Below are positions 1 through 64,000 of a stretch of DNA of 64,000 nt, piece after piece. The stretch covers positions 1-64,000 of the forward strand of contig JAJYDV010000003.1 in NCBI GenBank assembly GCA_021777375.1, read 5' to 3'. Origin of the DNA: a bacterium. Its GTDB lineage: Bacteria; Patescibacteriota; Saccharimonadia; Saccharimonadales; UBA4665. Made by a program: the position numbers and the translations under genes. Under the pieces are notes generated by a model. That model made no database searches, was not told the origin of the DNA, and saw nothing but the letters and a program-made list of their open reading frames with translations. Positions within the stretch are counted from its first letter, which is position 1; each line of letters starts with the position of its first letter.

Positions 1-11
1 TTAATCTTTGG

Positions 12-98
12 TGGTGCGCGGGGCGGGAATCGAACCCGCACGCCCTTACGGGCAACAGATTTTAAGTCTGTCTCGGCTACCTATTACGACACCCGCGC
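12..98 (-). tRNA. tRNA-Leu (anticodon TAA)
   Basis: Read on the minus strand, a full cloverleaf starts GCGCGGG and ends with the matching 3' acceptor strand, discriminator A and an encoded CCA. The anticodon loop CTTAAAA gives TAA. The long variable arm fits a class II leucine tRNA. It sits 8 bp from the next tRNA. Confidence 0.95.
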
Positions 99-106
99 AT
101 AATCTT

Positions 107-180
107 TGGAGACGCCGACCAGAATTGAACTGGCATAAAAGGTTTTGCAGACCTCTGCGTAACCACTCCGCCACGGCGTC
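107..180 (-). tRNA. tRNA-Cys (anticodon GCA)
   Basis: Minus-strand cloverleaf with acceptor GACGCCG, anticodon loop CTGCAAA (GCA), discriminator U and encoded CCA. It lies just upstream of the leucine tRNA, so the two are probably co-transcribed. Confidence 0.95.
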
Positions 181-218
181 ACATTTTATTAACCCAAGTA
201 TAGCCTACTACACTTCGC

Positions 219-677
219 CTAATCCATAATAGAGGATGGGCGAACTGTCTCCAGTTTAGTGCACTCTGCGCACTTACCCTGGATTTCAACCTGATGAGCG
301 ATAAGGGTAAAGTTGTTTGCTTTAGCAAGGTCCCGGATATGCCGCTCCAGCTCTTCGGCATTCATGTCGATTACTTTACCACACTGCGTGCAGTTCAAAT
401 GATGGTGGTGCGGATTGAAGCTATCGCTCAGCTCAACCTTATACTTAAAGCCGCTTACCAACCTGACCAATATACCGAGTCTTTCAAATAGTGCCACCGT
501 GCGGTAAATACTGACACGATCAAGACTACCTTCCAGCTTGTCAATCAGCTGGCGCATACTTATTGGCTCGCCGCCGGAAAGTGCTTTAAACACCGCCAGG
601 CGCTGACGTGTAATGCTATTTCCATTAGCAGCTAAGACCTGCTCAAGACGGGTTTCACTACCATTGCTGCTATTCAC
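219..677 (-). CDS. Fur-family metalloregulator (Fur/PerR/Zur type)
   Basis: A 152-residue transcription factor with the usual Fur layout. The N-terminal winged helix carries the recognition helix 'DRVSIYRTVALFERLGI' (about 53-69). The dimerisation domain has the histidine cluster HHHH (90-93), H128 and two CxxC pairs (C96/C99, C136/C139) that form the structural zinc site in this family. Fur, PerR and Zur cannot be told apart by eye. The track start is a GTG; a TATAGT hexamer ends 7 nt before it and there is no Shine-Dalgarno, so the message may be leaderless. No adjacent iron, zinc or peroxide gene shows the regulon. Confidence 0.9.
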   Translation of the reverse strand: MNSSNGSETRLEQVLAANGNSITRQRLAVFKALSGGEPISMRQLIDKLEGSLDRVSIYRTVALFERLGILVRLVSGFKYKVELSDSFNPHHHHLNCTQCGKVIDMNAEELERHIRDLAKANNFTLIAHQVEIQGKCAECTKLETVRPSSIMD

Positions 678-736: not shown

Positions 737-1033
737 CTAAAGACCTGAGGCTTGAGTACTTAACTGTGTACTATCGGTAGAGTTTGCGCCAATATTAGTT
801 TGGTTAAGCGCTGTTAGAGCGGCGCTCAAATCCGACGTGTTATTAATTTGCGGAGCCGTCGGTACTGTAACCTGCGTATTGGGTGTAGATTCGGCATTTA
901 TGAAGCTGGCGGTTGATTGGCCGGAATTGGCACCGTGATTTCGAATCACGTAGTAACCGATTCCTGCTATGGCAATTAACACTACCGCAAGCACTACTAG
1001 TTCTACTGTTGCAAATCCGGATTGTTTTTTCAT
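737..1033 (-). CDS. type IV pilin-like protein (cassette 1)
   Basis: A 98-residue protein with a type III (prepilin) signal: short basic leader MKKQSG, then F-A-T-V-E with glutamate at mature position 5, then a hydrophobic helix of about 20 residues. The rest is short, Ser/Thr/Asn-rich and lacks the large pilin beta-domain. Its C-terminal part (APQIN..SDL..AL.ALNQT) is shared with the pilin-like gene at 5448-5753. It starts 2 nt after the stop of the secreted protein upstream, so the pair is probably translationally coupled. A prepilin peptidase would be needed but is not in the window. Major pilin, minor pilin or pseudopilin is not decided. Confidence 0.8.
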   Translation of the reverse strand: MKKQSGFATVELVVLAVVLIAIAGIGYYVIRNHGANSGQSTASFINAESTPNTQVTVPTAPQINNTSDLSAALTALNQTNIGANSTDSTQLSTQASGL

Positions 1034-1035
1034 GG

Positions 1036-1584
1036 TTATTTAGCACTCCCTGAGGTTGTCGAAGCGCCGGCCAGTGTTACGCCGTTAGCTTGGGCTACCC
1101 CTACGATTAGATTTTTAACACTCGTCCTAAAACTTTGCAGGTCACTGATTTCACTCTTAAGGACACTTTGGAAGCCGGTTATTAAGGCTCGTGGATTACT
1201 ACCGCTACAGCTGAAGTTAGAGTTCGATTGCAGTGAACTTAGGTCGGAGCGTGTTTGTGACTCCGAGCTATTAACCGCAGCCACTAGTTGAGTGTAGTTG
1301 CTCGAGGTTTTTCCTTTAGTTACGTAGAATGCTTCTACCCTAGAGGCGATTGTACTGAATAGATTCAGCTGATTAGTGGCTCGTGTGTCGATACGGGTCA
1401 TTATTTGGTTGATAGCCTTCTCCCTGGCCACACACATCTTTTGCTGGGCGGTGGTTTGGGCTTGTTGGGCGGTTGCATTACCGCTACTAGCTTGAGCCGG
1501 TAGAGCGCTCGCTGATGCGCTCATAAGAGTAATCAGCGCCAGGCTGCTAATAATCAGCCCTAGTTTAGATAATATTTTATTCAT
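1036..1584 (-). CDS. secreted helical protein, partner of pilin-like gene (cassette 1)
   Basis: A 182-residue protein of unknown family. It has a Sec-type signal peptide (basic start, hydrophobic stretch, cleavage region near ASA-LPAQA), followed by a mostly helical, Ser/Gln-rich domain. Two cysteines (KMC..., FSC...) are shared with the paralogue at 5755-6387 and could form a disulfide. The strongest shared motif is AI..IM.RIDTRA.NQ..LFSTIA.RVE.FY. A purine-rich AAAGGAAG lies about 16 nt upstream of the ATG. The next gene encodes a pilin-like protein, and the same pairing recurs 4 kb away, so the two products probably act together at the cell surface (inference). Confidence 0.75.
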   Translation of the reverse strand: MNKILSKLGLIISSLALITLMSASASALPAQASSGNATAQQAQTTAQQKMCVAREKAINQIMTRIDTRATNQLNLFSTIASRVEAFYVTKGKTSSNYTQLVAAVNSSESQTRSDLSSLQSNSNFSCSGSNPRALITGFQSVLKSEISDLQSFRTSVKNLIVGVAQANGVTLAGASTTSGSAK

Positions 1585-1662
1585 TGTATTGTTGATTAGC
1601 TTCCTTTAAGTTATATCAAAAGAATAAGCATTTAGGAGTGTAAAATCAAGCACAACCGCAGC

Positions 1663-1935
1663 TTAGTGTTTATGAAGATCGTAGATTGTAGCTGCAACAA
1701 CTACTAATATGGCGGCCAAGATATACAGGAGAATGAACCTAATGGCGTGCTTGGAATGAAAGGCAGTATGCCCACTCTCCGCGGCCGGTAGATTTAATGG
1801 CTGGTTAGCAATGGCCTTATTTTGAGTTGAGGATTCCTGCGGTTGCGTAGTCGATTCTCTGGCCGGTGGTTGTTCTAAGCCTGTTTTATTGGTTTGTTCG
1901 GTATTTGGAGCTGGCGCGCCAGTGCTATCTTCCAT
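1663..1935 (-). CDS. small C-terminally anchored membrane protein, unknown function
   Basis: A 90-residue protein I do not recognise. Residues 1-60 are polar, Pro/Gln/Thr-rich and probably disordered; residues 66-85 form one hydrophobic helix (FILLYILAAILVVVAATIY), followed by a short His/Lys tail. This suggests a tail-anchored topology with the N-terminus inside. The ATG is preceded by a clear promoter with its -10 only 6 nt away and no Shine-Dalgarno, which supports the gene and its start. Confidence 0.65.
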   Translation of the reverse strand: MEDSTGAPAPNTEQTNKTGLEQPPARESTTQPQESSTQNKAIANQPLNLPAAESGHTAFHSKHAIRFILLYILAAILVVVAATIYDLHKH

Positions 1936-1941
1936 AACTTG

Positions 1942-1970
1942 AGCATAAGCGTTGAGAAGATTGTTTGCAA
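1942..1970 (-). promoter_or_regulatory. promoter for leaderless transcript of the 1663-1935 gene
   Basis: Minus strand: TTGCAA, 17 nt spacer, TATGCT, 6 nt, ATG. The spacing puts the transcription start at or next to the A of the start codon, and no ribosome binding site is present. Confidence 0.6.
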
Positions 1971-2021
1971 TAACCGCCTCTTTAGCCCTCGTTATTTCAT
2001 GAATACAACGACTAATAATCT

Positions 2022-3278
2022 CTAGCTAGAGCTGCGGCTATCGATGTAGTCCAGGCAAAAGCGTTCGAAAATTGAGTTAGTCCAGCCGAAACCGATTTGG
2101 CTTGGATAGACACCTTTAGTCGGTGGTTTACCGGGCTGCAGAACGTTATATTTCTCTAGGAATACACCGTTTGGCTCAAACCAGGCTAGGTTAGTCTTCA
2201 ACCATTTCATGGCTATCCGGTTGGCTTCCTTGTCGTAGCCGTAGCGCTTTAGCCCTTCGACAACCAAAAAATGTAACGGTGCCCAGCCGTTAGGATAGGC
2301 CCATTGCATCGGTACGGAGCTGAGTATGTGCTGGCCGAATAAAACGGCGTCAGTGGTCGTTAAGCCGCCCTTAACTTCAAACCGCCGTAAAGCACGCACC
2401 ATTTTTTTGGCTTGATCCGGAGTCGCCATTCCGGCCCAAAGGGCATAATAACTCGCTAGGGAACTCACATTGCTACACTTGCCTTTAAGATAATCGTAGT
2501 CATAATAGAGACCCTTGCCGCTGTCCCACATCAGTTCGTTGATTACTTCTTTACGGCGATTGGCCGTTTCCTCCCACTTGGCAGCGACTGATGAATCGCC
2601 TTGTAACTTTGCACCTCGGGCAAAATCCATTTCGTATTTATAGAGCAGCACATTAAGGTCAATCGGCAGATACTCTAGCACCTTATGGTTAAAGCGCGGC
2701 GTGTAGTCCCAGCCGCTTTCAGTTTCAGCCAGGTCATTTAAATAATTAATATCGTAGTAGCGGGACAGTCCTTTGTAGACCAAGCGGGCATTAGGCTTAG
2801 CAGTTCCCATCCAAACTTTCCGATACTCGGATTCTGCGATTGCTAACGATTTCTTTAACCAGGTTTTACTCATCTGAAAACTATCATAGACATCCCATAT
2901 ATAGCTGGTTAAAAATGGGGGCTGCGAATGTCCAATAAGATAAACCCGTGAAGCGTTAGGGATTATCCCAAAACGTTCAAACTCTGCAAAAAGATCTTCT
3001 AAAATTCCCACAACCAGACTGCGATGTTCTTCGCTCAATAGAGCCTGAATCATGAAATAGCTATCCCAGTAGTAGAGCTCGTTAAAGTCAAATTCGTGTC
3101 CCTTCTCATAAGCCGGAACCAAATACGGCTTAGGAAGTGCTATCAGTGTCTCGTCGTCTTTACTCTGATCATGGATCAGGTTCTGCCAATAGTTTTTAAT
3201 GTAGTTGCGGGCTTTAGCTACATCTTTAGCGCTTAAAGGCTTATCTGCAGCGCCGTAGGAGTTACGTACATCAAACAT
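2022..3278 (-). CDS. trehalase-like glycoside hydrolase (GH37 family)
   Basis: A 418-residue all-alpha glycoside hydrolase. The first trehalase signature appears in degenerate form as 'EFDFNELYYWDSYF' near residue 62. The second is 'QWAYPNGWAPLHFLVVEGL' near residue 325. The C-terminal 'FLEKYN' and 'QIGFGWTNSIF' blocks are also typical. GH37 enzymes split trehalose into two glucoses. No signal peptide is seen, so a cytoplasmic role is likely. It is shorter than E. coli TreF (about 550 residues), having lost N-terminal sequence. A related alpha,alpha-trehalase-like activity on another glucoside cannot be excluded. No trehalose transporter or phosphorylase lies nearby. Confidence 0.8.
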   Translation of the reverse strand: MFDVRNSYGAADKPLSAKDVAKARNYIKNYWQNLIHDQSKDDETLIALPKPYLVPAYEKGHEFDFNELYYWDSYFMIQALLSEEHRSLVVGILEDLFAEFERFGIIPNASRVYLIGHSQPPFLTSYIWDVYDSFQMSKTWLKKSLAIAESEYRKVWMGTAKPNARLVYKGLSRYYDINYLNDLAETESGWDYTPRFNHKVLEYLPIDLNVLLYKYEMDFARGAKLQGDSSVAAKWEETANRRKEVINELMWDSGKGLYYDYDYLKGKCSNVSSLASYYALWAGMATPDQAKKMVRALRRFEVKGGLTTTDAVLFGQHILSSVPMQWAYPNGWAPLHFLVVEGLKRYGYDKEANRIAMKWLKTNLAWFEPNGVFLEKYNVLQPGKPPTKGVYPSQIGFGWTNSIFERFCLDYIDSRSSS

Positions 3279-3334
3279 CTATGTTCTAAGCCTAGGCTAG
3301 GCATCAAGGCCCGTCAAGCTAGGCATGATTATTC

Positions 3335-4066
3335 CTAAAGATACTTGGAAAGATAGCTTAGAACACGTTCCCAAGCATCTTTAGCGGCCGGCTCATAGTA
3401 AGCAAACTTATTCGAATCATTGAAAAAAGCATGCGCGCAGTCCGGGTAGACCCTAGACTCAAAATCTACGCCGGCTTGTTTCATTGCTAAACTAACCGCA
3501 GGCAACGTACTAATCAGACCCTCATCGTTTTGGCCATAAAAGGCCCGAATCGGACTCTTTATCTTAGCTAGCTCGGACACTTCAGTTGTTACGTGCCCGT
3601 AGAAAGGCAAGGTTAGTTTTAGCCTTGGTTCTTCTATGGCTAGGCTGTAACTATAACTGCCCCCGAAGCAAAATCCATTCACCGCCACACGCTGCTTAAT
3701 CTCGGGCAGGTTATATAGATAATCGAAGCAGACTTTCAATTTACTAATTGTTTTAGAGGCAAAGTCCGGCTCTTGGATTGGCGCCATTAAAGCCCGCATC
3801 TTAGTTTGAGTGGCGTTACGCTTTTGGGGGTTAAATAAATCTTCCTGAAGCTCCGGGGTGGCATGAGCGGCTATATCCGTCTCGCTTAGCAAGTTAGGGG
3901 CTAGAGCGATGTAGCCTTGGCTAGCATAGCGATCGGCCACCGATTTAATGTGGTCGACTAATCCCCATACCTCATGAATCACAATTATCCCGCCCTTTAC
4001 CTCAGTTTTCGGGGTAGCTACGTAAGCTTTGAGCTTTTGGCCGCCGTACTCTAAATCCTGCCTCAT
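3335..4066 (-). CDS. dienelactone hydrolase family protein
   Basis: A 243-residue alpha/beta hydrolase. The start 'GGIIVIHEVWGL' carries the conserved oxyanion-side glutamate motif. The nucleophile elbow is G-F-C-F-G-G, a cysteine as in carboxymethylenebutenolidase. The acid lies in 'YGQNDEG' and the histidine in 'CAHAFFND', completing a Cys-Asp-His triad. DLH enzymes hydrolyse lactones and esters; the substrate here is unknown because no aromatic-degradation genes are nearby. The upstream TATAAT lies 11 nt before the ATG, so the leader would be only a few bases and lacks a ribosome binding site. Confidence 0.88.
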   Translation of the reverse strand: MRQDLEYGGQKLKAYVATPKTEVKGGIIVIHEVWGLVDHIKSVADRYASQGYIALAPNLLSETDIAAHATPELQEDLFNPQKRNATQTKMRALMAPIQEPDFASKTISKLKVCFDYLYNLPEIKQRVAVNGFCFGGSYSYSLAIEEPRLKLTLPFYGHVTTEVSELAKIKSPIRAFYGQNDEGLISTLPAVSLAMKQAGVDFESRVYPDCAHAFFNDSNKFAYYEPAAKDAWERVLSYLSKYL

Positions 4067-4165
4067 TATGGTTACTAATTATATACCGAGACGCCTTTTA
4101 GGGAGGTTAGAAATACCTTATCAGGGCTTTTAAAATAACATTTCTGACTAGTGTGGACATGTCTG

Positions 4166-5176
4166 TTAAGCGGATAAGCGGACTTCGGTTTCGTACCTGT
4201 TGTCGCTTAAATTGCCACCACTAATTAAGCAAACCACGTTTTTCCCTGAGATATCTTCAGTGCGGTTTAAGGCAGCTACCGATAAAGCTCCGGCCAGCTC
4301 AGCTCTTAATGGCCGGCGTCTTTCCCATAATTGCATCGTGGCTTTCCTTAACTCTAGATCAGATACTTCAACTGTCGCAGCTACCAGATGTCCGGCAAGT
4401 CGAAAAGGTAACTCGCCGACTTCCTTTACCGACGCTCCGTCAACAAAAGTAGAAATCGTTTCAAGCTGCGCCGGTCGACCATATTTCAGCGCTTCTTTTA
4501 GAGAAGCAGCACCTTCAGGTTCGGCGCCAATAACTTGTGCGTTAGGGTAGCGGTTTTTTATCGCCGTGGCAATTCCGGCCAACAAGCCCATGCCTCCTAC
4601 CGGGCACATAACGACGTCAATATTTGGTACCCGGTCCGCTATCTCTAGGCCCCACGTACCCTGTCCGGCAATAACTCTAAGATCATTAAAGGGATGAGCC
4701 ATGACTGCTCCCTTTTCGCGGCCAAAGTCCTTGGCGGCCCGTGAGGCCTCGTCGAAGCTGTCCCCGACTAGCTTAACTTCAGTTTGTTCGCCCCCAAAGT
4801 CTAATACACGGTTAATCTTATTGGCTGGCGTGTTTCTGGGCATGTAGACTCTGCACTTCACTCCCTCGCTATTACAGCAAAGAGCAATACCCTGGGCATG
4901 ATTGCCGGCGCTTGCAGTGACTACGCCGCGCTCTTTTTGGTTTTGGTCCAGATTGCTAATAAAGTTAAAAGCCCCTCGAATCTTATAAGCCCCGATCGGC
5001 TGATGCACTTCGCTGGCCAGCCAAACGTTAGCGGCGTAAGTTTCAGATAGCGCCTCGTCAAAACTTACTTCAGTCCTCAATACCGGGCTAAAGGGCTCCC
5101 TAAGCAGTTTGTCGGCAATCAGAATTTCACCCATCAGTTCTTGATTTAGCGAATTGTTTTGCTCAGTTCTAATCAT
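4166..5176 (-). CDS. threonine dehydratase / serine-threonine deaminase (PLP fold type II)
   Basis: A 336-residue PLP enzyme converting threonine to 2-oxobutyrate and ammonia (or serine to pyruvate). The Schiff-base lysine is in 'GAYKIRGAFNF', the substrate loop is 'SAGNHAQG', the phosphate-binding loop is 'PVGGMGLLAGI', and the C-terminal 'CLISGGNLS' holds the cofactor-binding serine. It has no C-terminal ACT regulatory domain, so it matches the short catabolic TdcB-like form and not IlvA with isoleucine feedback. A hairpin with a T-run and a promoter-bounded leader lie directly upstream. Confidence 0.9.
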   Translation of the reverse strand: MIRTEQNNSLNQELMGEILIADKLLREPFSPVLRTEVSFDEALSETYAANVWLASEVHQPIGAYKIRGAFNFISNLDQNQKERGVVTASAGNHAQGIALCCNSEGVKCRVYMPRNTPANKINRVLDFGGEQTEVKLVGDSFDEASRAAKDFGREKGAVMAHPFNDLRVIAGQGTWGLEIADRVPNIDVVMCPVGGMGLLAGIATAIKNRYPNAQVIGAEPEGAASLKEALKYGRPAQLETISTFVDGASVKEVGELPFRLAGHLVAATVEVSDLELRKATMQLWERRRPLRAELAGALSVAALNRTEDISGKNVVCLISGGNLSDNRYETEVRLSA

Positions 5177-5200
5177 TTCATTGTTAACTATTAGTAAATA

Positions 5201-5228
5201 TTAAAAATCCTCCTTTTTGCGGAGGATT
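5201..5228 (-). terminator. intrinsic terminator or attenuator upstream of threonine dehydratase
   Basis: Minus strand: AATCCTCC, loop GCAAAAA, GGAGGATT, then TTTAAT. An 8 bp perfect stem followed by a T-run. It ends about 25 nt before the dehydratase start codon, so it can end the leader transcript or attenuate the gene. Confidence 0.7.
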
Positions 5229-5321
5229 ATTGTTATTTGCTTGCCTGAAAATTGACCAAAGCTATAAGCACCCCCGCCGAGGAGTCATAATCATCTCCGA
5301 CATAATAATTGAGTTGCTCAT
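5229..5321 (-). other. possible short leader transcript with 19-codon mini-ORF
   Basis: Between the promoter at 5331-5360 and the hairpin at 5201-5228, the minus strand holds a mini-ORF (5262-5321) starting ATGAGCAAC and ending at TAG, with three Ile and four Met codons including the start. It could be an attenuation leader peptide or just chance; there is no ribosome binding site, and the -10 lies 9 nt before the ATG. Confidence 0.3.
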
Positions 5322-5330
5322 AACTTTTTT

Positions 5331-5360
5331 ATTATATACGCCAACCGCTTAAACCGCCAA
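5331..5360 (-). promoter_or_regulatory. promoter for leader / threonine dehydratase
   Basis: Minus strand: TTGGCG, 18 nt spacer, TATAAT. It points towards the hairpin at 5201-5228 and the dehydratase gene. Confidence 0.55.
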
Positions 5361-5366
5361 TAGCAG

Positions 5367-5396
5367 TCCTCCTAGGCATTGCAATACCTAGGAGGA
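5367..5396. repeat. inverted repeat, 10 bp perfect stem
   Basis: TCCTCCTAGG, a 10 nt loop CATTGCAATA, CCTAGGAGGA. There is no T-run on either side, so it does not look like a simple terminator. It lies between the cassette 2 pilin gene and the promoter at 5331-5360. A 3'-end stabiliser or a protein-binding site is possible. Confidence 0.6.
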
Positions 5397-5447
5397 GTCT
5401 ATGTTAGTGTTGCTAAGTCCTTAGCAAAAAAGCGCAAAGCTCTAGCT

Positions 5448-5753
5448 TTAAAAACCAGAAGAATAGCTGCTTAGCTGACTGCTATCGACATTGCTGGAGC
5501 TAATACTGGTCTGATTAAGAGCGCTCAAAGCACTACTAAGATCAGATGCGGTATTAATTTGCGGGGCTGAAGGAGTAGAAGTCGCAGGCGATTGATAGCC
5601 GCCATTTAAAACTGAAATTGATGCTGTGGAATTGCTATTTTTGTTGTGTTCGTGCCAGACGAAAAAACCCGTGGCAACAATAGCTGCCGCAAGAACGACT
5701 ATTATTACCATTTCTACAATTGCAAACCCAGATTGAGTTAGTTGTTTTTTCAT
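5448..5753 (-). CDS. type IV pilin-like protein (cassette 2)
   Basis: The track ORF begins far upstream at a non-ATG codon; the true start is the ATG at 5753 (MKKQLTQSGFAIVE), which gives 101 residues. It has the prepilin motif G|F-A-I-V-E with glutamate at +5, a hydrophobic helix, and a short Ser/Asn-rich tail. The tail motif APQIN.ASDLSSALSALNQT.. matches the pilin-like protein of cassette 1. One nucleotide separates its ATG from the upstream stop (TAATATG), implying coupled translation with the secreted partner. Confidence 0.8.
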   Translation of the reverse strand: MKKQLTQSGFAIVEMVIIVVLAAAIVATGFFVWHEHNKNSNSTASISVLNGGYQSPATSTPSAPQINTASDLSSALSALNQTSISSSNVDSSQLSSYSSGF

Positions 5754-5754
5754 A

Positions 5755-6387
5755 TTATTGCTTACTCCCCTGTGCAGCAGTTGACTGATTGTTTGAAGAT
5801 ATATTAACCCCGTTAGCTGAAGCAACCCCTACGATAAGGTTCTTAACGGCCGTTCTGTAGTTTTGCAGGTCACTGATTTCAGTTTTTAAGTAACTCTGAA
5901 AAGCGGAAACCATTCCCTTTGGATTACTCGCACTACAGCTAAAGGTGCTGTTAGTCTGCAGAGTACCAAATTCAGTCTCAGCTTGAGTTTTTGCCGCCGA
6001 AACAGCCGCTAACAACTGACTGTAGTTACTTAGAGTCTTGCCTTTTTGAGTATAGAAATTTTCCACCCGGGTAGCTATGGTGCTAAAAAGAGTTATCTGG
6101 TTTTGGGCTCGGGTATCGATTCGGCTCATTATATTAGAGATGGCTTTTGAGCGGTTCTGACAGGCTTTTAGCTGTGCCGCCTGGAGATGTGCCTGGCCAT
6201 TAGCAAGCCCATTGCCCGATTGGCTAGATCCCGGGTTATTGGTGCTGTTGTATCCTGGATTACTCCCAGCAGTTTGGGTGGCGTGCGTAGTTGCTTGTGC
6301 CGGCAGGGCGAAAGCTATTGATCCGCCCATCACTACTAGAGCCAGCGAAGAGCTGATTAGCCCAAGTTTTGTGAAGTATTTTCGCAT
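5755..6387 (-). CDS. secreted helical protein, partner of pilin-like gene (cassette 2)
   Basis: A 210-residue paralogue of the 1036-1584 product. Signal peptide (MRKYFTKLGLISSSLALVVMGG...), then an extra low-complexity Gly/Asn/Ser-rich insert of about 35 residues absent from the other copy, then the shared helical domain with C...R.KAI..IMSRIDTRAQNQ..LFSTIATRVE.FY and FSC.ASNPKG. The ending 'RTAVKNLIVGVASANGV' is almost identical in both. A Shine-Dalgarno (AAGGA) lies 7 nt before the ATG. No known family is recognised; a role in pilus assembly or surface binding is inferred only from the pairing. Confidence 0.75.
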   Translation of the reverse strand: MRKYFTKLGLISSSLALVVMGGSIAFALPAQATTHATQTAGSNPGYNSTNNPGSSQSGNGLANGQAHLQAAQLKACQNRSKAISNIMSRIDTRAQNQITLFSTIATRVENFYTQKGKTLSNYSQLLAAVSAAKTQAETEFGTLQTNSTFSCSASNPKGMVSAFQSYLKTEISDLQNYRTAVKNLIVGVASANGVNISSNNQSTAAQGSKQ

Positions 6388-16640: not shown

Positions 16641-16964
16641 ATGGTGGCACTTTCCACGTGTGACACAGAAAAATGGTTCACGCTTAAGAAATGGCTTGAT
16701 TCGACGCCGTCATCGGCTTCTGAACTGCAGAACGCTACTTCACACCGTAATCGTAATAACGCACGCGATCACAATGTCAGTGCCGAGCGAGTTGTACAAC
16801 GTCTACGCCAGCGACAGAGGCGCCTCACTGTGGAACAGGTGACCGACATGATTGTGAAATTTGAAGCAGGAACTACGGTTTGTCAGCTAGCCGCTGAATT
16901 CGGCTGCCATCGCACGACCGTCGCCGATTACCTGACGAGAGTCGGCGAAAAGATTCGACTTTAG
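16641..16964 (+). pseudogene. serine-recombinase-type C-terminal helix-turn-helix fragment
   Basis: The ORF is 107 residues, but only the last 60 or so (from about 16776) look like protein homology: 'RRLTVEQVTDMIVKFEAGTTVCQLAAEFGCHRTTVADYLTRVG' is a resolvase/invertase-type DNA-binding helix-turn-helix, common at the end of actinobacterial recombinases. The catalytic serine domain is absent. The ATG lies on the CCA remnant of a lost tRNA and is not a credible start. I read it as a decayed recombinase remnant. Confidence 0.55.
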
Positions 16965-17431: not shown

Positions 17432-17461
17432 ATTATACCTGATAAATGTCTATTTATGCAA
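17432..17461 (-). promoter_or_regulatory. leaderless-type promoter of the 17093-17425 gene
   Basis: Minus strand: TTGCAT, 18 nt spacer, TATAAT (consensus), 6 nt, ATG. Confidence 0.65.
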
Positions 17462-17526
17462 TGGACAGTTTTTGTTTATTGTCCTTACGCGGACAAGCAG
17501 GAGTCATGTCCAGGACTGCCTGTACT

Positions 17527-17703
17527 TCAGGCCGTCCACTTGCTGTGTTGCTCAATGCCATTGGCGTCAATCACCACGTGCAAGTGCTCATTTGGGTATT
17601 CCGGCTGAACGATGATGACGTCAGTCTGAGGCTGTCCGTTGCTCGTACCGGCGTTGACCTTCACAGTCGCGTCGGGACCGGAACTCTGAATCTTGTAGCT
17701 CAT
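17527..17703 (-). CDS. small protein of unknown function (58 aa)
   Basis: The track shows a longer ORF from 17961, but the real gene very probably starts at the ATG at 17703 (MSYKIQSSG): a strong Shine-Dalgarno AAGGGGGAGG lies 6-7 nt upstream. The 58-residue product is polar and beta-rich in appearance, with a C-terminal 'EHLHVVIDANGIEQHSKW' block. No family recognised. The GC-richer codons and the strong ribosome binding site differ from most of the window, suggesting transfer together with the recombinase debris. Confidence 0.6.
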   Translation of the reverse strand: MSYKIQSSGPDATVKVNAGTSNGQPQTDVIIVQPEYPNEHLHVVIDANGIEQHSKWTA

Positions 17704-17718
17704 AATTTCACCTCCCCC

Positions 17719-18120
17719 TTGAAGCGCGAGAAGGACAAGTTCGAGCGACAGCGCGAGAAGCTCATGGAGGCGCATTACGTGGGAGCCATTCCCGTTGATC
17801 TTCTCGGTCGCGAACAAGAACGGATCAGCCGGTCGCTCAGAGAGATTGAGGCGCGGATGTCGGCTTCGTTGACTGAGTTTGAGACGATTGAGGAAAACCT
17901 CGCACGGGCACTTGATCTCGCCGGAGACTGCGGAGCCGCCTACGAAGAGGCGCCGGATCACATCAAGCGGATGTTCAACCAGGCGTTCTTCGAGAAGGTC
18001 TTCGTCGTTCAGATCGACGAGAGCATGGCGGGCGTTGAGATCGACGCCAAGTTGAGGGGGCCCTTCGACCTGCTGCTGGGCGACGAACTTCGTACCGCCA
18101 GTAATTCCTCGACACCGGAT
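17719..18120 (+). pseudogene. large serine recombinase, C-terminal coiled-coil fragment
   Basis: In the plus-strand ORF 17446-18261, homology-like sequence starts at 'LKREKDKFERQREKLMEAHYVGAIPVDLLGREQERI', the coiled-coil region after the recombinase zinc-ribbon of large serine integrases, and runs to 'RGPFDLLLGDEL'. The catalytic domain and zinc ribbon that should precede it are missing; instead an antisense gene (17527-17703) abuts. The remaining ORF ends are read-through of a tRNA gene (GLEPPTSCV). GC content is clearly higher than in neighbours. An actinobacterial or phage origin is inferred. Confidence 0.75.
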
Positions 18121-18132
18121 CGGAGAACGAAG

Positions 18133-18164
18133 AAGCCCGCTGACAAGACTGTCAACGGGCTTTC
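18133..18164 (+). terminator. terminator after the recombinase fragment
   Basis: AAGCCCG-c-TGACA-AGAC-TGTCA-a-CGGGCTT: a 12 bp stem with one mismatch, tetraloop AGAC and a short T-run. Likely the native terminator of the recombinase. Confidence 0.75.
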
Positions 18165-18217
18165 ATGTACCGGCTCTCGAACACCTCTTCAGGTGAAGGG
18201 TTTGAGTAACGCACTAA

Positions 18218-18294
18218 TGGTGGGCGCTGAGGGACTTGAACCCCCGACTTCTTGCGTGTAAAGCAAGCGCTCTAGCCAACTGAGCTAAGCGCCC
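18218..18294 (-). tRNA. tRNA-Val (anticodon TAC)
   Basis: Cloverleaf with acceptor GGGCGCT, anticodon loop TTTACAC (TAC), T-loop TTCAAGT and encoded CCA. Its 3' end faces the recombinase fragment, the usual position of a tRNA used as an integration site. Confidence 0.95.
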
Positions 18295-62567: not shown

Positions 62568-63041
62568 CTAGTTATGGATAAAGTTGTACTGGCTGGCCGA
62601 CTGGGGAGACATGATTCGAGTGTCTACTTCATCCCAACCTACACGGTTCATTTCAGATATCGTCCAGGCGCCGGTTTGGGAGTTTACACTCTCGACAAAA
62701 GCTACGTGTCCAAGTCCGCCGGGTGCCTGAGAGTCCTGCATAATGGCTCCGAAGCTAGGCACGTGATCAACCAGGTAGCCATCTGCTGAGGCGCGCGTTG
62801 CCCAGGTAATCGCATTGCCCCAGCTGTTTGGTATTGGCTCACCAATTTGGATACGCCGTAGAGCTACCCAGTAAGTACACTCACCGTACTCATAGGCATC
62901 TGAGGTGTTAGCTGGCAAGTCAAACAAACTAATTGCTGCGGAGGCCAAGGCGCCAACATTCGTCGCCGTGAGCAAGGTAATAATTGGCATACCCGCCATA
63001 AAGATAACTACCCCTACTGCAATAGCAACCATTTTTTTCAT
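62568..63041 (-). CDS. secreted CHAP-domain peptidoglycan hydrolase next to virB4
   Basis: A 157-residue protein with an N-terminal signal or anchor (residues 4-30) and a compact CHAP domain: catalytic cysteine in 'YEYGECTYWVALRR', histidine in 'GLGHVAFVESV', and 'WTISEMN'. No LysM or other binding repeat. Its ATG overlaps the VirB4 stop (ATGA), so it is likely the wall-opening hydrolase of that secretion apparatus, as VirB1-type enzymes are elsewhere (inference). Confidence 0.88.
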   Translation of the reverse strand: MKKMVAIAVGVVIFMAGMPIITLLTATNVGALASAAISLFDLPANTSDAYEYGECTYWVALRRIQIGEPIPNSWGNAITWATRASADGYLVDHVPSFGAIMQDSQAPGGLGHVAFVESVNSQTGAWTISEMNRVGWDEVDTRIMSPQSASQYNFIHN

Positions 63042-64000
63042 TTCGCGAAGACCTCGTTTGGATCAGTAGTAATTAACGGGTGTTCGCTTGCAGACGCTAC
63101 AACACTTAACGCAACATGGTTCAAGTCCGCAATAATTAACGCATCACCGCGTTCACAAGTCAGCAAAAAGCTTTGTTCGAACTCGCTCAACTTAAATTCC
63201 CGGGAAACGTTACTGATTGTCGTGCTGTCCTGACGCATTAAAATCCTTAACGAACTTTGGCTGGCAATGGCTCGTCCGTATTCGTTAGTTAAAAAGTCCG
63301 TTGCCTGCTGCGAGATAATCGCGACTCCCAGCCAATATTTCCTGGCTCTTCTAAAAAGTCCGGCAATAAAACGGGCGCTTTGTTCATGCTCCAGCAACAA
63401 CCAACCCTCATCAATAACCAGTAGGCGTCGTTTCGGTTCGTTCTTAACCTTATCCCAGACGAAATTTGAGATTATGACCATCATCATCTGGCGCAAATTG
63501 TCCGGCAGATCCTTGATGTCAAATACTACCAAGCGATTATCTAAATCGATATTTGTCGGGTGGTTAAAAACAGATGAAAGTGAGCCGCTAACATACTTAT
63601 CCAGGCGTTCGGCTAATTTAATTTCCTGAGCGTCAATTAGTTGCTTATAAAAGTCCTCTAGTGTCACCTCGCGCTTTGCAGAGACTCTTTTGTAAGCAGC
63701 TAGGACAGCTTTATCTACGGCAGCCATTTCTTGAGCATTTAAGCCATCCGCCATTAGTGAAATAATTTCTGTAAGACCCTGGACCTGCTCGGCTAATGAG
63801 ACAGAAGTGGTTGTTTTATTTTTACCGTTCAATCCAAAAGGATTTATTTTTTGGCTTGAGCCAATGGAAAGTTCAATGTGGGCGCCACCAACCGATCCTG
63901 CCAGATTAGCGTATTCACGCTCCGGATCAATAACGATAACGTCCGTGCCAAGCATTAATTGTCTAAGTATCTCGACCTTGCTGGCGTAGCTTTTTCCGCT
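63038..64000 (-). CDS. VirB4/TraC-type conjugation or secretion ATPase (C-terminal part)
   Basis: Partial: the reading frame is open to the window edge, giving 320 residues; the track start at 63955 is internal. It begins in Walker A (SGKSYASKVEILRQL). Next come 'DVIVIDPEREYANLAGSVGG', Walker B 'RRLLVIDEGWLLLEHEQSARF', 'GLFRRARKYWLGVAIISQQATDFL' and 'SSLRILMRQD'. This is the AAA+ motor half of VirB4, which powers type IV secretion or DNA transfer. The N-terminal half lies outside the window. Confidence 0.93.
   Translation of the reverse strand, partial: SGKSYASKVEILRQLMLGTDVIVIDPEREYANLAGSVGGAHIELSIGSSQKINPFGLNGKNKTTTSVSLAEQVQGLTEIISLMADGLNAQEMAAVDKAVLAAYKRVSAKREVTLEDFYKQLIDAQEIKLAERLDKYVSGSLSSVFNHPTNIDLDNRLVVFDIKDLPDNLRQMMMVIISNFVWDKVKNEPKRRLLVIDEGWLLLEHEQSARFIAGLFRRARKYWLGVAIISQQATDFLTNEYGRAIASQSSLRILMRQDSTTISNVSREFKLSEFEQSFLLTCERGDALIIADLNHVALSVVASASEHPLITTDPNEVFAK

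Follow-up and report, generated by a model that had tools for sequence, protein, structure and literature searches.

A duplicated gene pair encoding a predicted secreted three-helix-bundle protein and its membrane-anchored partner in Saccharibacteria and related lineages

The stretch of DNA analysed here (the window, 64,000 nucleotides) derives from a 724-kb Saccharibacteria assembly in 15 contigs and carries two copies of a two-gene cassette, both on contig C10 and with all four genes on the reverse strand. Copy 1 comprises a gene for a 210-aa protein predicted to be secreted and to fold as a three-helix bundle (5755–6387), followed after 1 nt by a gene for a 101-aa membrane-anchored tail protein (5448–5753), and copy 2 comprises the corresponding genes for proteins of 182 aa (1036–1584) and 98 aa (737–1033), separated by 2 nt from stop to start. 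The secreted proteins are 53% identical over 196 aligned positions (E 6e-64) and their partners 49% identical over 104 positions (E 1e-21), confirming the original prediction of paralogous pairs with the same order and 1–2 nt coupling at these coordinates. The cassettes are true paralogues that were duplicated as one unit. A search of the source genome found just these two copies of the secreted family, and the partner profile gave full-length matches in that genome only to the two small proteins of the window. As had also been proposed, the copies flank genes that read as trehalase-like, dienelactone-hydrolase-like and threonine-dehydratase-like. A near relative (G010) has copy 1 and the three intervening genes in identical order on a contig that terminates within copy 2, which makes an assembly error unlikely. 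Comparison of copy 1 with that genome gave dN/dS values of 0.12 for the secreted gene and 0.11 for the partner, so that both genes are under purifying selection, on few changes.

Several other features of the window were recorded. Directly upstream of copy 2 lies a gene for a 90-aa protein (1663–1935, reverse strand) that starts with a proline/glutamine-rich stretch and has a single membrane helix at its C-terminus; the protein is identical in G010 (L195:8149–8421). An open reading frame (17446–18261) that looks like the C-terminal portion of a serine recombinase runs into a tRNA-Val gene (18218–18294) and, with an adjoining helix-turn-helix frame (16641–16964), is perhaps what is left of a decayed integrated element. 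At the far edge, the end of a VirB4-like ATPase gene (63038–63955) and a gene for a CHAP-type peptidase (62568–63041) are probably part of a Patescibacterial type IV secretion locus. The open reading frame at 8–229 (forward strand) was rejected, as it arises from tRNA-Leu and tRNA-Cys genes on the opposite strand.

The secreted protein consists of a signal peptide, a flexible linker and a three-helix core. In copy 1 the probable signal peptide (MRKYF...ALPAQA, 6292–6387) was recognized by eye from its basic start, hydrophobic core and AxA-type site, and suggests export by the Sec route. The AlphaFold model of the core (residues 57–191, 5815–6219) has a pLDDT >90 and contains three antiparallel helices (residues 57–115, 122–145 and 156–191). 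Two cysteines form the sole invariant columns in an alignment of 54 divergent members (54/54), and they correspond to C76 (6160–6162) and C151 (5935–5937) in copy 1 and to C51 (1432–1434) and C126 (1207–1209) in copy 2. They probably form a disulfide, and in the main group of sequences, class I, they are mostly 75–77 residues apart. Both the cysteines and the motif IM.RIDTRA.NQ had been put forward as common to the family; the former proved invariant, and the latter is restricted to the genus level.

Searches of Pfam, NCBIfam and PHROGs with the secreted protein returned weak matches only, of the sort usual for long helices, searches of PDB sequences retrieved coiled-coil segments only, and comparison with PDB and viral folds gave no match at E ≤ 0.001. 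The expectation that no described family would account for this protein was thus upheld, with no match to a known unrelated family in the databases searched, and we consider it, as judged from its sequence, to be a new family. Two candidate assignments were rejected. ArlX/FlaX (PF24151, NF058591), the archaellum scaffold and an archaeal motor protein, matched the secreted protein of copy 2 only, weakly (E 0.002 and 0.015) and well below the cut-offs (18.1 vs 28.7 and 14.9 vs 225 bits); copy 1 was unmatched, and the match is typical of long helices. A type VII (WXG/LXG) substrate was ruled out by the visible signal peptide and by a TIGR04197 score of 16.5 bits against a cut-off of 26.

From its N-terminus, the partner runs through a short start and a hydrophobic helix into a low-complexity linker, with the tail at the end. 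In the AlphaFold model of the copy 1 partner, helices span residues 8–41, 70–81 and 91–98; the first is a prepilin-type transmembrane helix (QSG/FAIVEM..., 5631–5732), behind which the model shows no globular C-terminal domain, only the linker and then the two short tail helices, modelled at lower confidence than the bundle core. The extracytoplasmic tail (INTASDLSSALSALNQTSISSSNVDSSQLSSYSSGF, 5451–5558) is conserved across the phylum and aligns with the corresponding tail of copy 2 (INNTSDLSAALTALNQTNIGANSTDSTQLSTQASGL, 740–847). When 53 order-level partners were aligned, the only columns beyond the start conserved at 90% were G9, ahead of the helix, and two leucines of the tail, L72 and L79, and the linker showed no conservation. 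What appears to be conserved in the partner is a single-pass topology with the N-terminus inside and the C-terminus outside (topology, like the signal peptides, was read from the sequence), together with a short acidic C-terminal tail. A profile built solely from the tails of order-level class I partners was run on 2,832 open reading frames from 80 other loci, and the frame directly behind the bundle gene filled all of the top 22 ranks.

A profile search followed by a check for the partner showed that the pairing is conserved in other genomes. A small partner gene lay behind each of the 85 distinct class I secreted genes in the order (85/85), at spacings of −11 to +34 nt, and by our own count a membrane protein was the next gene behind the bundle gene in 19/19 more distant loci and in 53/57 assessable cases among 60 additional loci, which come both from the order and from elsewhere in the phylum (L177 and L183, at contig ends, and L184, masked, were left out as unassessable). 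The remaining four bundle genes (L150, L171, L187 and L193) have no partner behind them. Separate trees of the two genes agreed with good support: in each of them copy 2 falls with L030/L044, copy 1 with L004, and the second copy of L022 with that of L023. The two genes are inherited as a pair. Such paired inheritance and tight coupling would also be expected if the partner were a dedicated membrane-bound chaperone, aiding the folding of the bundle or its exit from the translocon and absent from the final structure; a short tail would suit transient binding, and a conserved disulfide would gain from assisted folding. Family searches matched no known chaperone family, however, and some lineages have gained a lipid anchor or long arms in the cytosol, for which chaperoning gives no obvious need, and we regard this explanation as rather improbable.

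Patescibacteria form a very large group of minute bacteria, commonly found living on other microbes, and we next give the distribution of the pair among them, with class counts made partly by eye. Class I is the prevailing class in the window's family, with 61/93 genomes. Twenty weaker profile matches led to a remote class II, with cysteines mostly 82 residues apart, which prevails in the other families of the order, with 77/106 genomes; the two classes together cover 151/199 order genomes. Profile comparison relates the class I and class II secreted proteins to each other (E 9.5e-15). Between the partners of the two classes it aligns the membrane helix alone, so the relation between their tails is one of pattern only. 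The class I profile also matches proteins in other classes of the phylum, and a third group lacks the cysteines and keeps the arrangement; its putative homology draws on helical profiles and the common partner. A broader profile of the secreted protein matched 109/380 phylum genomes at E ≤ 1e-5, of which the low scorers are possibly chance helical matches, and weak matches in the phylum scan (E ~1e-5 to 1e-8) were counted only where the partner was seen. The pair reaches divergent lineages across Patescibacteria.

In class II partners a long arm, acidic or proline-rich, lies in the cytosol and is followed by a membrane helix and by a tail with the end ...SD.SLGL; some of them (L159–L162 and L164) have a different tail end. 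Their arms would fit a membrane receptor or regulator, with the secreted bundle serving as signal or sensor and the N-terminal arm of the partner relaying its binding to the cytosol. We consider this highly unlikely: in most partners just a few residues lie on the inner side, and the arms look disordered and unconserved and resemble those on unrelated membrane proteins of these genomes. No neighbour common to the pairs offers a clue to function, the recurrent ones being an HhH-GPD glycosylase, a Mur ligase and MscS. Class II has a recurrent neighbour of its own, an anchored CarboxypepD_reg-type protein. Examples upstream of class II pairs (L115:304–1905, L118:3352–5370, L107:3920–5974, L111:3043–4647, L169:455–2218 and L170:3650–5596) are anchored, often with an acidic start, and have a CarboxypepD_reg-like stretch and similar C-termini (..ETADYA..LDGG..K.I.D.T); the protein is possibly a third member of the class II operon. 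Its frequent presence upstream, together with the combination of a secreted and a membrane-anchored subunit, would accord with a two-component surface coat, in which the bundle forms or organizes an envelope layer and the partner is its stalk, in a layout like that of Sulfolobus SlaA/SlaB. This neighbour is not general, though, and both proteins fall far below the size of S-layer subunits and have no sequence or fold similarity to them, so that we hold a coat to be quite unlikely.

The original prediction had described the partner as pilin-like with a G/F....E motif; both window partners have it, and the wider family has it only in part. It occurs in 51/85 order partners and in two further partners outside those (L145 and L158). 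The other 34 of the 85 have different short transmembrane starts, 30 of them keeping the glycine before the helix, and a pilin-motif search misses many order partners because the prepilin Glu5 is absent there. Class II, like some further lineages, has a cytosolic arm with a helix as its anchor, and in a single case, L155 (2314–2556, reverse strand), a lipobox (LSAC) replaces the transmembrane helix and the acidic tail is still present. L022 and L023 each have one prepilin-type and one plain transmembrane-anchor copy side by side, the plain-anchor cassettes (L022:2493–3386 and L023:2533–3387) lying just behind the prepilin-type ones. The anchor is exchangeable among prepilin-type, plain transmembrane, long cytosolic arm with helix and, once, lipobox forms, and common to all of them would be a helix or lipid that places the C-terminal tail outside.

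This exchange bears on whether the pair belongs to a pilus. The proposal of a dedicated pilus subunit, tip protein or chaperone finds no support as a general statement, as nearly all partners classified beyond the 85 lack the motif, and those without it have a plain helix, an arm or, once, a lipobox instead; a pilus role in the window's lineage is possible, since most of its clade retains Glu5, and the anchor may enter the pilus machinery there. An explicit version is that of a split pilin, in which a small prepilin, once the peptidase has cleaved it, becomes part of a type IV pilus and carries the separately secreted bundle as its missing globular head or tip. The motif in the order partners, both window copies included, speaks for it, and so do the 13/53 order-level partners that match N_methyl (PF07963) at E ≤ 0.01, and the presence of prepilin peptidase and pilin loci in the source genome. 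In addition, the partner profile, when compared with PDB sequences, retrieved pilins and flagellin only, by way of its N-terminal helix. Yet in the source genome N_methyl matched neither window partner at E ≤ 0.05 and found nine other segments, and the type IV pilus genes and full-size pilins lie on contigs C12, C14 and C15, away from the cassettes. Elsewhere, no pilus family is found among the 25 commonest families of recurrent neighbours. Prepilin peptidase occurs in 165/199 relatives, and order genomes whose partner lacks Glu5 nonetheless have it (for example G026, G032, G055, G058, G062, G076, G082, G083 and G124). We consider a split pilin unlikely. The presence of the peptidase was also rejected as a cause of having or lacking the motif, since most genomes have the enzyme either way. 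As a side observation, the pilus-related contigs of the source genome, G000 (C12, L194; C14, L197; C15, L196), hold two type IV pilus/pilin clusters and one orphan pilin with a short start and a long proline-rich linker.

Given that anchors are exchanged, that the tail is kept and that the secreted protein has no anchor, the most economical interpretation is a tail that holds the bundle on the cell, and we give about even chances to the pair being a two-part cell-surface module of this kind. The product of the first gene would be exported via Sec, with no anchor of its own, as a three-helix bundle behind a flexible linker. The second, made right after it, would span the membrane once, its N-terminus on the cytosolic side, and display the linker and the short acidic two-helix tail outside, where the tail would most likely bind the bundle and keep it at the membrane. 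The type of anchor would matter little, consistent with lineages swapping anchors, and in the window's lineage the prepilin-type anchor may be processed by the peptidase and join the pilus machinery. The opposite mean net charges of the bundle core (+3.8) and the partner tail (−5.3) fit such a tether. Across pairs the charges co-vary (Spearman +0.41), which gives no support for specific pairing, and charge complementarity was rejected as a sign of contact between bundle and tail. Against a tether we count the four bundle genes that have no partner, the divergent tails of some class II partners, and retention of the prepilin motif by the greater part of the window's clade, since a tether alone has no use for it.

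A wider interpretation, which we offer tentatively and hold to be doubtful, is that the pair is an old module of the Patescibacterial envelope, of central importance for the cell surface and perhaps for host contact, in which the conserved tail does the work and the anchor has been swapped many times; placing the tail on a prepilin, in Saccharibacteria, would have made the tether into a split pilin displaying the bundle on the pilus. We infer direct tail–bundle binding and an envelope or host-contact role from the features described above. Presence in about three quarters of the sampled genomes of the Saccharibacteria order, and in divergent lineages, makes the pair a strong candidate as a core component of the surface, and the size of the module suits the genetics that already exist in cultivated Saccharibacteria. 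As the anchors change and a single tail is conserved behind them, the tail stands out as the working part, and such proteins should not be named pilins from their N-terminus. No such pair is described in the literature compared (PMC6744442, PMC12206443, PMC10633639 and PMC11665869) or was found by keyword, covering CPR protein families, Saccharibacterial pili and genetics; an unnamed cluster among published CPR-enriched families may contain it.

Some known systems resemble the pair in part. The window partners share with type IV (pre)pilins (PF07963 N_methyl/TIGR02532) a short basic leader, G/F...E and a long hydrophobic helix; unlike them, they are ~100 aa long, have no globular domain and have their own conserved acidic tail, and most relatives in the phylum lack the motif. 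Closer in arrangement is Geobacter, where one operon encodes a short pilin and a further protein (PMC6201914). This precedent favours a split pilin, as the PilA-N/PilA-C layout of a short prepilin beside a separate protein recurs in the window cassettes, and among PDB sequences the partner profile matched Geobacter geopilin domain 1 best (E 0.0043, N-terminal helix only). Here, however, the gene order is reversed, the second protein is helical and not beta-rich, and most relatives are not prepilins; neither PilA-C nor any other pilin was among the PDB sequence matches of the bundle, and it had no significant fold match. In Sulfolobus, a secreted subunit, SlaA, is held by a separate membrane-anchored subunit, SlaB (PMC10903991); these have 1424 and 475 residues, against 180–210 and ~100 here, and searches of Pfam, PDB sequences and folds gave no relation. 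The two protein families and their pairing are new, and the principle that they would share with these systems, a secreted subunit held on the anchor of a partner, has analogues; the pair would seem to be a hitherto undescribed means of keeping a protein at the cell surface.
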